Assembly (NCBI GenBank): GCA_031835245.1
Contig: JAVKOQ010000047.1
Coordinates: forward strand, 123,501-187,500
DNA: 64,000 nucleotides
Origin: Balamuthia mandrillaris
Taxonomy: Eukaryota; Discosea; Longamoebia; Balamuthiidae
Direction of reading: 5' to 3'
Shown: positions 5,896 to 13,192 of the stretch, in pieces
How positions within the stretch are numbered: the first letter of the stretch is position 1
How the letters are laid out: every line of letters begins with the position of its first letter
Notes under the pieces: model-generated
The model's input: only the letters and a program-made list of their open reading frames with translations
Database searches by the model: none
What the model was told of the DNA's origin: nothing
Position numbers and translations under genes: made by a program

Positions 5896-6052
5896 AGCTT
5901 GCTGCCCTCGACCTTAACTCCCTCCTTCATTCTGGCAACGCTTCTGACTCTGCTACGGACGCTCCCAGCCTTGCCGCCACCCTGAAGCTATCCATGCGGA
6001 AGGTCTCCACACAGATGACGACGACGACGTAGAAGACGACTGTGAGGACAAA

Positions 6053-7181
6053 GTGGAACCTCCCATCACGGCTCCCGTCCTCCTTAACCGTCAGCGCGCC
6101 ACAGCCTTCATAGACTCTGGTGCATCTCACTCCTTCATTTCTCCAGCAGCGGCGGAAAAATACCTCCACCCAGCATCCTGTGAACGCCATCACACCGTCA
6201 TCTCCCACATCGACGACATGGAGATCACGTTAGGCGACAGGTCCACCACTCGCGTTACCCGCCGTGCGGCACACGTCCGCATCGACTGTGGCTCCCGTAA
6301 GCTACATCACCACTTCTTCATCATGCCGCTTCAAGGTGAGCATGAGATCCTATTCGGAAGAGACATTTTGCGACGCATTAGCGTTGGTCTTTTCGGCCTT
6401 CCTGTGCGTTATCCTCTCCCTAGCGAACGAGAAGAGTTCAAGGAAGACGACTCCAACATGTCTGACAAAGATCAGTGTGTTGAGCTTCCTCCTCCTCCCG
6501 ACACTGCTCGAAAAATTGCTGAAGGCATCTGCGACGTGCTCCAACGCAACCAGCAAGTGCCTCATGGCCCCAGCAGTACTCTTCCAGAGAGTGTTATCTA
6601 CCTCAACACCGGCGATGCCAAACCTGTTTTTCGTAAGCAGTACACCATTCCTCAGGTGTATCACAACCCGGTTTTCAGGCAACTCACCGAGTGGCTCCGA
6701 CACGGCGTCATCGCGCTATCCTCACTCGACTGCCAGTGGACTTCTCCCATCCTTCCAGTCCCCAAAAAGGACGAACACGGAAAATGGTCGAAAGTCAGGA
6801 TCTGTATTGACCCTGGCGGCATTAATCCTCGCCGATGACGAGTACCCGCTCGAGGACACCAAGGTTCTCATCGAACGAGCTCTAGGCCTCAAATGGGCTA
6901 CCCTCTTGGACCTCGTCTGGTCCTACAACCAAATCCTGGTTTATCCACCACACCAGGAAAAACTTACCTTCACATGGTATGGCGTACGACTCAAGTTCGT
7001 GGGCGCACCTTTCGGCGTCAAGCACGTTCAGGCTGTCATGTCCCGCTTCATCGCAGCCGCCCTCCGCCTCCTGATCGACATCTCTTCCCACTACGTGGAC
7101 GACATCTTGGTCTTCACCAGATCCTCTTCGCTGGAACAGCACATCAGTGACATCGTTAAGGACAAAAAACACAACACATAG
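6053..7181 (+). pseudogene. Pol fragment: retropepsin and partial reverse transcriptase
   Basis: The first frame (6053-6838) has the aspartic protease active-site motif DSGASHSFIS, a GRDIL motif and the start of RT (WTSPILPVPKKD, then RICIDPGGIN). After a frame change at about 6838, RT resumes with YPLEDTKVLIERALG, a TFTWYG segment, GAPFGVKHVQAVMSRF and the catalytic YVDDILVFT. The palm is present up to the YVDD box; the thumb, RNase H and integrase are gone. The frame change and the truncation make it non-functional as it stands. Confidence 0.85.
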
Positions 7182-8277: not shown

Positions 8278-11200
8278 TCAAGAAGGATGGGGAAGATGAA
8301 TGAGCTCGTCAGTGATCCAGTAGTAGAGGAAAGAAGCTGTCTTCTTGATACGTCCATGATTTACGGCATCGTAGTCGCTGTAAAAGTCTTTCACGGATGA
8401 AAAGCCCAATTTGGAGAGCACGAAGAGGATCGATTTGAATCGTTCTTGCTCTGCCATCTTCGCAAACGTTTTCGTATCCCCTCTTGCTTCAATCATCAGA
8501 GAGCGCAGACGATCGTCCACGTGGGCACAAAAGGCATCAAACCGAGCTTTTAGGGCTAAATAGCAGTCTTTGTATTCGGCAAAGTTGCGAAGAAAGTACT
8601 CGTCTCGTTCTTCATGTTCTACTTTTTCGTTATGTTTGCTCCGTTGCAAATGGAGAAGTAGAAGTGCAAGCAGGCATTGCTCCTTCTCTCTCAACAGGTC
8701 TGCTGTAACTCCTGCATGATGTTGTTGTCCTTCTTCTTTGCTTTGTGTGGAAGAAGTAGAAGATGAAGAAGGAGAGGATGCTTGGGCAGCCTTTGCAACC
8801 TTAGCTTTGGTTCTTTCCCATTGCTCACGACGTTTGTCCTCTCGTTGTTCCCATGACAGCTGGTTGTCGTCTTCTTCTGTCTCTCCTCTGTCTAACTTGC
8901 GTAGCCTTTGTATACATTCATAATGAGGAGTGTGAAGTGACGTTCGTTTGAAACTCGTCATCCTGATTCCTTTTTTCGTGTTGTTTGGCTTCTCTTTCTC
9001 TTCCGTATCCTCATCGTCCTCTTCACAGATAATATAACCTTTAACTTCACCTGTTCGATGATAGGTTCGTGCTCGTCGTATCAATTCTTCAAATGGTTGT
9101 TGCTCTGTTGAAGTTGCTTTAGAGAGAGATGCAGAAGGAGGCTGAAGAAGGTTATTATACTCCACCGGCGCAACTACCTCCCATCCGCATCGCTCCAACA
9201 CTTGCCGTAAAGGAGATATTGCAACTGAAACCTCTCGAAAAATACAAGAAGAAGAAGAAGAAGAAGAAGAAGACAGCTTCCGAATGGCGACGAGTACCAA
9301 GCGATCTTTCTCGTGGTGTACAATGTTCCGCAAGTATAAGTCAGTGCTCATCATCTGGAAGATGTAGCAATGGTCTGTTGGCACTTCGGAAAGCGTCATT
9401 CCTTGTCGGTGAAAGATGTCCCAAAAGCTGCGACGGAGCTCATCCTCTATGCGTTGCAGCTCCTCGCTTGAAGTGAGACGTGCTGCCATTTCTTTACGAA
9501 GTTCCACAACAACTTCCCAACGTGGTTCTTCTGTTCTTGAAGGAAGATAGCAAAGAGAGGCGTGAAGACCATCAAATAGCGGATATATACGAGTCTTGTC
9601 AGTCCAAAGCGGCGGACAGGCGAACGGGGCAAGTTTGGTGTTTACCACAAGTTTTTTCCATCGCTTCGCTTCTAGAAGGTCTTTTTGTGGCTGGAACGGA
9701 AACCACTTGCGAAACAGCGGAAAGGAGAAACACAATAGAGATTTCTCTGTGTTTTGTGCATGTTCTCCTGTTGCTATTTCCTGTTCTTTTTCCTTGTCGT
9801 TTTCTTCATCCTTTGTATTGGTTATTTGCGCTGGCGATAAGGCGATAACGAGCTTGTGATAGCACTCGAAGGACATTCTATCTTCCGGGAAGAAGAACGG
9901 AGCGCGTTGTCGCCATTCATTTTGGAGCACAAGCACTGCTTGCAAGTCCTTTTTCCCATCTTCCAATACCTTTTCTTCGCTTTTGTTTTTTTCTGACGTA
10001 CAAGAAGAAGAAGAAGAAGAAGAAGAAGAAGAAGAAGAAGAAGAAGAAGAAGAAGAAAGCAAACGTGCTCCAATGCCACAGTCACGAAAGAGAGCAGCTG
10101 TACCTCTACTTCTCACATAGTCCACACAACACAATGGCACGTCACTCTCGTTCTCGTTGTCAGAACGAGCTCGAAGCCAATTTTCTTCGAAAATGCGATA
10201 GGCGTTCACGATCTCAAAGAAACTCTCCATCTTTTCGTTGTAGATAGGTGTTAGCCAATCCTCCAAGTCTTGCCAGCTCAAGATGTCCTTACGAGTGAGG
10301 ATTTGTTGACAAAGCTCCTTCAGCTCGAAACGATCGTAGACCTTGCCCATGCGAGCAATCTGTATCGAAAAGGCTAAATGGGACATCACATAGCACAACC
10401 GTTTCTTAGCTTTTCGTATCTTTGAGAAGTATCATGAATCTTTCGTTAGAAACGATGGATAGTATAGGCGAGAGAGAGAGAGAGAGAGAGAACAAACGCG
10501 TCCATGATTCCAAAACTGTTTAGCATAGGCAAAATTCTTGCGAAGGTTATGGGGTACAGCCTCTTTCCACTAGTATTCTAAATTATGAGTCGCCAAACAA
10601 GAACTGGAAAGAGATAGAGAACATAGAACAAAGCATAAAAGAGAGAGGGATAACCTTGTGAAGGCTAAACTCGGTATGAAACTCGTGTCGTTGCAGCCAG
10701 ATGCCGTCATTCTCGAAAGTATTGGAGAAGAAAACATGGCACCAAGGAATGTGCTGGTCTAGTTTATCTTGCCACACGTTCTTCTCGTAGACAGCAAGGT
10801 CCAATCCTTCGCTTTGTACCACATTCTCTTCCGTAGGCTGATCCCACCCCTCCACTGTAATGCCAATCAATAACAAAGAACGATAGTAAGAAAAGAGACA
10901 GAGACAGAGAGAGACAGAGACAGAGACAGAGACAGAGAGACAGAGACAGAGACAGAGACAGAGACAGAGACAGAGACAGAGACAGAGACAGAGACAGAGA
11001 CAGAGACAGAGAGACAGAGAGACAGAGAGACAGAGAGACAGAGACAGAGATGAGATACCAATGATACAAAAATCAGAGTCAGAGGCAGGGTTATCGAGGC
11101 CCCACCAACGGGAGCCCCATCGATAGATATTCAAGACGTTGTCCTCCGTAAGTCCTTCCTTCTCCAACAACGTCTCATAAATCCGCCTCAACAGCACTTT

Positions 11201-11719
11201 CTTCTCTCTCACCGAAATGTAGCCTGCTCTCCAACACTCCTCTTCCTCTCCTTCCTTTCTACCACATTCTTGAACAAGTCGTTTTCTTCTTTGTTCGCGA
11301 AAGTTGCCTTCCAGCTGGCTCAATCGCTCTTCCATCAGTTGCAAACGGACCAACTGGCTCTCTTGCTGCCGGATCAGGGCACGAAAGGTGTCCTCGTGCC
11401 GCTTCAACTCGCGACGCACCTTTCGTTTGTTCTTGGGCACCCATGTCGTGACCGACGTCAACAACCCCCCTCCCACCACCCCTTTTTGTTGTTGCTGTTG
11501 AAGGCGAGCCGCTTTCTTTTCCTCCTCCTCCTCCTTCTTGCGCTGTTGGCGGTGAAAGTGTCGGCGCTCTTTCTCGCGGTGGACCAAGTGAAGGCGCCCC
11601 GACAGGTGCTTGGCCTTTTCTTCGATGGTGGCAAAACGCAATTGGCAGGTATCGCAGCTGTAGTGTCCTCCTGCTGCTCTTCCTTCTGCCTCCTCCTCCT
11701 TTTCCTTCACCTCCTCCAT
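8278..11719 (-). CDS. C2H2 zinc finger + nucleotidyltransferase + T4-Rnl1-type RNA ligase fusion
   Basis: Four exons (11719-11059, 10854-10655, 10569-10498, 10404-8278) join in phase into about 1019 residues. Residues 22-44 form a CX2CX12HX5H finger of the U1/matrin kind. Basic coiled coil follows to about 160. A nucleotidyltransferase core follows: G202-S203 then D214-x-D216 (IYRWGSRWWGLD, SDSDF), with D239 as likely third acid. An a-helical part (KNFAYAKQFWNHG, HLAFSIQIARMGK) resembles the tail of MnB-like nucleotidyltransferases. From about 530 comes RNA_lig_T4_1-like sequence: FPLFRKWFPF, IYPLFDGLHASLCYL (motif I region), YIFQMMS with RLVLVAIRK, VKGYIIC (IV) and SFKRTSLHTPHY (V). In motif I the nucleotidyl-acceptor Lys position (KxDG) is Leu (about 587). 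Poly-Ser lies near 430. A role in RNA end repair or tailing is inferred. Confidence 0.75.
10020..10056. repeat. Coding trinucleotide repeat (poly-Ser in the ligase fusion)
   Basis: GAA repeats on plus are read as TCT-type Ser codons on minus. They insert about 20 serines between the nucleotidyltransferase and ligase regions. Confidence 0.85.
10890..11051. repeat. (CAGAGA/GACAGA)n array in an intron
   Basis: About 160 bp of imperfect CAGAGA units (sense strand TCTCTG) fill most of the first intron (10855-11058) of the zinc finger/NTase/ligase gene. The acceptor CAG and the donor GTATCTC lie just outside the array. Confidence 0.9.
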
Positions 11720-12313: not shown

Positions 12314-12963
12314 ATGGAAATGTGGAGCGGTGAGTTTTTTGAGGCCAAAGCGGTCCTGTTCGACCTGGACGGCACCTTGCTTGATACCGAACTTCTCTCC
12401 ACCCAGGCCATCGCCAAAGTTATAGCACCTCACGGTGGAAAGGTTCATACATTCTATTTTTTTTAAAACCATCGCAACTCCACTTCAAACATCTCATCTC
12501 TCTCTCTGAAAAGATTGAGTGGGAGTTAAAGAAACGGCTGTTAGGCCTCAAAGGTCCCGACTGGTCCCGTCTCGTCATTCAAGACCAAGGGCTGGAGGGC
12601 AAGCTCACCCCCGAGGAGCTAGTGGAAGGCTGGGAGTCCCACCTGGCCGCGCTCTACCCCTCCGTCCTCAAGCTGCCCGGCGCGGAGGAGCTCTCCTCCC
12701 ACTTGGCCCAAAGGGGGATCCCTCAGGCCCTCTGCACCTCCTCCAGCCGCCACGCCGTAGCGCTGAAGAGGGAGGCTCACCGGGAGATGTTTGACCGGTT
12801 CCAGGTGGTGGTCACCGGGGACGATCAGGAGCTGCAGAGGGGCAAGCCCGCCCCTGACATATTTTTGTTGGGAGCCAAGCGGTTGGGAGTGGACCCGGCT
12901 TCTTGTATTGTGTTTGAGGACGCTCTTTCTGGGTGTCAAGCAGGTTTTTCTTTTTCTTCCTCT

Positions 12964-13009
<46 letters not shown>

Positions 13010-13192
13010 TGTCTTCTTGTTTTGACGAAACATGCGAATGAAAAAGGCAAAGCAGCAGGTATGAAGGTCATAGCTATTCCCGACACGCGGTTGGACGTCT
13101 CTGTCTTCAAGCCATATGCCGACCAAGTCCTCACCTCCATGCTCCACTTCAAACCTGAACAATTCGGTCTTCCCGCCTTTTTATCACCCTGA
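12314..13192 (+). CDS. HAD hydrolase, pseudouridine-5'-phosphatase-like
   Basis: Three exons give about 230 residues. Motif I is AVLFDLDGTLLDTE (nucleophile Asp). The cap reads LTPEELVEGWESHL and VLKLPGAEELSSHL. Motif II is LCTSSSRH, the Lys motif is RGKPAPDIFLLGAKRLG, and motif IV is IVFEDALSGCQAG. The C-terminus GMKVIAIPD then FKPEQFGLPAF is typical of HDHD1/pseudouridine-5'-phosphatases, which remove phosphate from pseudouridine 5'-phosphate in RNA breakdown. The start is the ATG at 12314; a second ATG two codons on is equally possible. Intron 1 lies at about 12442-12513. Intron 2, at about 12944-13060, holds a (CT)n run. The exact substrate is inferred from the family; other sugar-phosphate substrates are possible. 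Confidence 0.88.

Follow-up and report, generated by a model that had tools for sequence, protein, structure and literature searches.

The window analysed here, a 64,000-nucleotide stretch of the genome of the amoebozoan Balamuthia mandrillaris, carries on its minus strand a predicted gene in which a zinc-finger-like motif and a nucleotidyltransferase (NTase) precede a half resembling T4 Rnl1-type RNA ligases (Table 1). The first-pass annotation had joined two separate open frames through two short exons, and the four exons indeed sum in phase, giving 3060 nt, i.e., 1019 codons and a stop, with no internal stop codons. In that model all three introns have GT donors, the acceptors are CAG, TAG and AAG, and exon 4 lies inside a 717-codon stop-to-stop frame. 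Log-odds scores of codon usage, with parts of three ORFs from the same genome as the training set, were calculated for exons 1, 2, and 4; they were positive in the proposed frame (0.36, 0.16, and 0.20, respectively) and negative in the other two forward frames of these exons, as well as in the three reverse frames of exon 4. Exon 1 encodes, without interruption, both the zinc-finger-like motif and the NTase motif GS...DxD. Since intron 1 is in frame and stop-free, an unspliced message would likewise stay open; a structure model of the NTase that was predicted from the unspliced DNA, translating intron 1 as well, yielded nothing usable.

Two neighboring features were noted on the plus strand. 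Downstream of the gene, positions 5948-7181 of the window contain open frames with FIDSGASHSF and YVDDIL, which we take to be retropepsin-like and reverse-transcriptase-like, respectively, and which by eye belong to an LTR-type retroelement fragment. On the other side, at ~12314-13041, a HAD-like hydrolase (FDLDGTLLDTE) was recognized by eye; it is divergently oriented and has its upstream region in common with the gene described here.

Table 1. Features of the predicted gene in window coordinates; residue numbers of the ligase-like region follow the first-pass gene model.
Feature	Position	Strand	Basis
Exon 1 (ATG at 11719): zinc-finger-like motif, charged stretch, start of NTase	11059..11719	-	Frame; codon log-odds
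Intron 1: 204 nt, CTCTGT-type microsatellite repeat, in frame, stop-free	10855..11058	-	
Exon 2	10655..10854	-	Frame; codon log-odds positive in coding frame only
Intron 2	10570..10654	-	Frame
Exon 3	10498..10569	-	Frame
Intron 3, preferred acceptor TCAAAG/ATACGA (first annotated as 10405-10497)	10420..10497	-	NTase profile score 76.0 vs 67.2
Exon 4 to TGA stop, preferred start 10419 (first annotated as 10404)	8278..10419	-	Frame; NTase profile
Putative C2H2 zinc finger, C22-x2-C25-x12-H38-x5-H44, JAZ/dsRNA-binding-like	11588..11656	-	Sequence; PF12171 E 0.049
NTase core motif GS...SDSD (G202-S203, D214, D216)	11060..11125	-	Profile match; identical in 4/4
Third NTase carboxylate, GLDLAVY (D239)	10787..10807	-	Asp aligned in 4/4
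NTase C-terminal helix IRKAKKRLCYVMSHLAFSIQIARMGKV	10339..10419	-	Extends NTase profile alignment
Rnl1-like region, catalytically degenerate, residues ~491-806 (upstream limit by eye)	8920..9867	-	Profile alignment
Motif I YPLFDG: nucleophile Lys replaced by Leu587 (codon 9579-9577)	9568..9585	-	Lys in 60/60 relatives
Motif III: Glu replaced by Gln661	9355..9357	-	Glu in 60/60
Motif IV: Glu replaced by Lys766	9040..9042	-	Glu in 60/60
Motif V region (aligners disagree)	8932..8955	-	Both Lys in 60/60 relatives

The NTase was compared with relatives from the same genome (64.8 Mb, 775 contigs). From 13 PF01909 matches, six stretches were taken, and three of these were dropped (C91 and C170, by eye another NTase type, and C8, by eye related but comprising the N-terminal part only). 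The NTase profile was built from an alignment of the other three genes (on contigs C64, C18, and C35) that excluded the window protein. By hhalign, residues 160-420 matched this profile with an E-value of 1.1e-9 and a score of 67.2; none of 120 shuffled sequences did as well, the best reaching 25.5. The GS pair, both Asp residues of the DxD motif, and the third Asp (D239) were identical in all four sequences (the window protein and its three relatives). Pfam itself remained sub-threshold for the excised domain, with NTP_transf_2 and Polbeta at E 0.015 each, and the NCBIfam model MntA matched the NTase motif at E 0.018, also below its cut-off. Together, the profile match and the conserved catalytic Asp residues bore out the NTase assignment made from the sequence at first sight, and suggest a Pol-beta-superfamily NTase with intact catalytic carboxylates that is probably a working enzyme and belongs to an otherwise apparently stand-alone family. 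Members of that family (C18, C64, and C35) have a helical tail with the pattern KK-x-[LV]-x-H, which no Pfam model covers over cut-off; the C64 and C35 proteins pass a Pfam cut-off (NTP_transf_2), while the C18 protein does not. RlaP proper was rejected as the family of this NTase: its core motif alone aligned with the RlaP genes of the same genome (score 23.1, with 21.0 for the best of 100 shuffles, and 29.0 for the C89 gene alone), the C-terminal helices of RlaP were unmatched in the tail of the window protein (56 of 200 shuffles were as good), and hmmscan gave no PF10127 match in the protein.

The NTase profile also bears on the last splice junction. By itself, the exon-4 tail was equaled by 45 of 120 shuffles (and residues 291-420 by 90 of 120); it was given weight only where it lengthens the full NTase alignment. 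The score rose from 61.4 with exon 4 left out to 67.2 with the junction as first annotated, and to 76.0 (E 4.7e-11) with an acceptor 15 nt further upstream, where exon 4 starts at 10419. Moving the annotated junction 45 nt downstream instead, to an in-phase, canonical CAG acceptor, gave 65.7 and removed part of the NTase helix. When exon-4 tails were shuffled (n = 150), none reached 76 and four reached 67.2. The upstream acceptor adds the residues IRKAK and restores the AKK-x-L motif of the related NTases, and because of this restored motif and the gain in score we prefer the start at 10419. The annotated junction was thus probably 15 nt short, a correction based on homology rather than on transcripts; the acceptor is a non-canonical AAG in either version. 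Since the NTase alignment runs on into exon 4, the NTase tail and the ligase-like half share an open frame, and on these sequence grounds the single gene proposed originally is well supported. The claim that the helical tail continues across the junction of exons 3 and 4 held as well, most clearly with the shifted acceptor. The best explanation of the locus is a spliced gene with a product of ~1024 residues.

The C-terminal half had been assigned to the T4 Rnl1 type, and here the evidence was divided. The predicted similarity of the translation to PF09511 was not recovered, with no match at E 10 in HMMER scans of the whole protein and of pieces, and the window is absent from the genome's own 20 matches to this family. 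Against a small profile of six Rnl1 ligases from the same genome, pieced together by hand, the half scored 27.6 (best of 20 shuffles, 20.0). A large Rnl1 profile of 126 sequences (these six and the 120 listed of 2443 database relatives) gave 38.4, compared to 32.2 for the best of 150 shuffles, with an hhalign probability of 49%; after removal of inserts, the score was 38.3 (best of 250 shuffles, 29.7; probability 47%). Decoys, i.e., 56 ORFs of at least 220 codons, reached 27.5 at best against the same profile. The alignment path pairs YPLFDG with EKVDG at motif I, passes through IFQMMS...IVHHEKDRLVLVAIR at motifs III/IIIa, and pairs VKGYII with TEGFVV at motif IV, and MAFFT, run separately, placed motifs I, III, and IV in the same columns with the same three replacements. 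Motif I retains its DG, and the L...R pattern further downstream is also preserved. In motif V, the first Lys is Ser according to both aligners (S800 in MAFFT, S795 in hhalign), and the second is either His802 (MAFFT) or a retained Lys797 (hhalign). The upstream motifs ECRG and KFFN may by eye correspond to ECYH and FRKWF, which MAFFT aligns differently. A structure model of the ligase part resembled ligases but was built from the ligase alignment and is no independent proof of the relationship; its mean pLDDT was 60, and its TM-scores to T4 Rnl1 were only 0.23-0.37.

We conclude from sequence and model that a T4-Rnl1-type origin or fold of the C-terminal half is moderately supported, by the collinear profile match and not by Pfam or HMMER detection. 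With the motif I Lys and the Glu of both motif III and motif IV replaced, this half is probably a pseudo-ligase from which the residues for adenylyl transfer are gone. The frame sum of the four-exon model stood, while its last junction and the intact ligase probably did not, and the replacements speak against the RNA ligation that had been suggested for the protein.

The C-x2-C-x12-H-x5-H spacing of the zinc-finger-like motif is that of the dsRNA-binding fingers of zf-C2H2_jaz (PF12171), but its match to that profile (E 0.049) falls short of the curated cut-off and ranks behind a sub-threshold FAM76 match to the same stretch. The spacing lends weak support to a dsRNA-type zinc finger as a putative RNA binder.

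When the full-length protein and parts of it were scanned against Pfam, PHROGs, and NCBIfam, no family passed its cut-off, and stray sub-threshold matches (FAM76 at E 0.0074; papovavirus T-antigen, YokU, DUF6271, and others at E of at least 0.02) were put down to chance or composition. By sequence, the best PDB match had an E-value of 0.075, with neither a ligase nor an NTase among the matches. A full-length homologue was not found among the 7992 database candidates that shared most words and were scored, a set from which poly-Ser words may have displaced real relatives, and none of 59 candidates for the NTase piece reached E 1. Searches of the Balamuthia genome and of viral contigs likewise turned up no homologue of the fusion; weak own-genome matches on C65 and C148 were antisense to leucine-rich repeats. 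The titles and abstract openings surveyed named no NTase/pseudo-ligase fusion. Among the candidates scored, database proteins of 0.55-1.75 times the length did not match the gene, though a Balamuthia protein is in the database, and the gene may be unannotated or modeled at another length.

Judged by profile matches, the genome carries a rich set of Rnl1 and RlaP genes. The 20 PF09511 matches are exon-level and all exceed the cut-off; several form pairs with equal scores on two contigs, which may be alleles or duplicates. Of the 12 RlaP matches listed, 10 also exceed the cut-off, and these lie on six contigs. One further locus (L014, C121:41000-50900, minus strand) has a 1652-codon ORF with an intact Rnl1-type ligase (KIDG) and, by eye, HAD phosphatase-like and DEDD 3'-5' exonuclease-like parts, an arrangement reminiscent of the 'Swiss army knife' RNA repair proteins.

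Our tentative reading is that the gene encodes a zinc finger, an NTase, and a dead ligase in one chain, with an NTase in place of an enzyme of two activities. The architecture, i.e., the single frame, the NTase, and the degenerate but collinear ligase motifs, is well supported at the sequence level; for the function, we infer the following. The NTase would add one or a few nucleotides at RNA 3' ends, an RNA substrate being assumed; the zinc finger and the pseudo-ligase may hold on to broken RNA molecules, perhaps tRNAs, whose ends they would present; and an intact Rnl1 ligase of the same genome could then seal in trans. All six of the pieced-together Rnl1 ligases keep the Lys of KxDG. The RNA substrate, the 3' addition, and the sealing by a paralogue are modeled on the co-occurrence of RlaP and RNA ligases in phages. 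RlaP Pol-beta NTases of jumbo phages are described as functioning beside RNA ligases, and the prediction is that they restore lost nucleotides before ligation (PMC7824862). That the protein represents a new eukaryotic RNA-end-processing enzyme, a template-independent NTase that takes its specificity from a dead ligase in cis while an active Rnl1 ligase seals, is doubtful when taken as a whole. If true, a pseudo-enzyme would serve as substrate guide beside intact Rnl1-type ligases and RlaP genes, and the role of an NTase for a ligase would become testable in one polypeptide.

An NTase with a pseudo-ligase could also act on something other than RNA, modifying a protein or a small molecule, as MntA-type NTases do in AMPylating toxins, with the ligase fold as scaffold or ligand sensor. 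We consider this unlikely, but it has points in its favor: the motif in the window protein is about as weakly similar to MntA as to NTP_transf_2 and Polbeta, and no ligase was seen beside the three related NTases in the short stretches covered. The Rnl1-like and zinc-finger-like parts, however, both suggest RNA. Clearly less probable is that the C-terminal half is unrelated to ligases and that its match arose by chance, aided by motif reading by eye. It is true that HMMER gave no match, that the hhalign probability was below 50%, that the profile was seeded with hand-pieced ligases of the same genome, and that a global hhalign alignment was unsuccessful; yet motifs I, III, IIIa, and IV match in collinear order, the score beats 400 shuffles and 56 decoys, and MAFFT reproduces the columns of motifs I, III, and IV. 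We regard it as about equally improbable that an ancestral NTase-ligase fusion is losing its function in a decaying, perhaps unexpressed gene: the open frame of 717 codons, whose codon use is of the coding type, and the retained NTase residues argue against decay, even if the lost catalytic residues of the ligase, the AAG acceptor, and the absence of the protein itself from the scored candidates, despite a Balamuthia protein in the database, would fit it. Finally, the bifunctional enzyme envisaged in the first-pass annotation, with nucleotide addition to RNA and RNA ligation combined in one protein, is very improbable, as the Rnl1-like profile match and the preserved DG and L...R pattern are set against the replacement of three catalytic residues, each present in 60 of 60 relatives.

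The protein that we favor, an NTase joined to a zinc finger and a dead ligase, can be set beside known systems. Its nearest relatives found are the NTases on C64, C18, and C35 (L053, L051, and L055), which have the same three Asp residues and an AKK/SKK helix; the C18 NTase differs in being one 325-codon ORF without a ligase, and neither a ligase nor a zinc finger was seen in the 1.1-1.2 kb stretches of C64 and C35. To T4 Rnl1 and the PF09511 family, including the Trl1 ligase domain, it is linked by collinear motifs and probably by the fold of the adenylyltransferase domain, whereas T4 Rnl1 has the nucleophile Lys and the motif III and IV Glu that are replaced here, and the ligase part of the Balamuthia protein stands behind an NTase and contains large low-complexity inserts. 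With RlaP (PF10127), it shares the Pol-beta GS...DxD motif and a partnership of NTase and RNA ligase, which in phages appears as co-occurrence and is taken to mean cooperation of separate proteins in RNA repair (PMC7824862). The partners of RlaP are thus separate, while in the Balamuthia protein the ligase partner is fused to the NTase and apparently dead.
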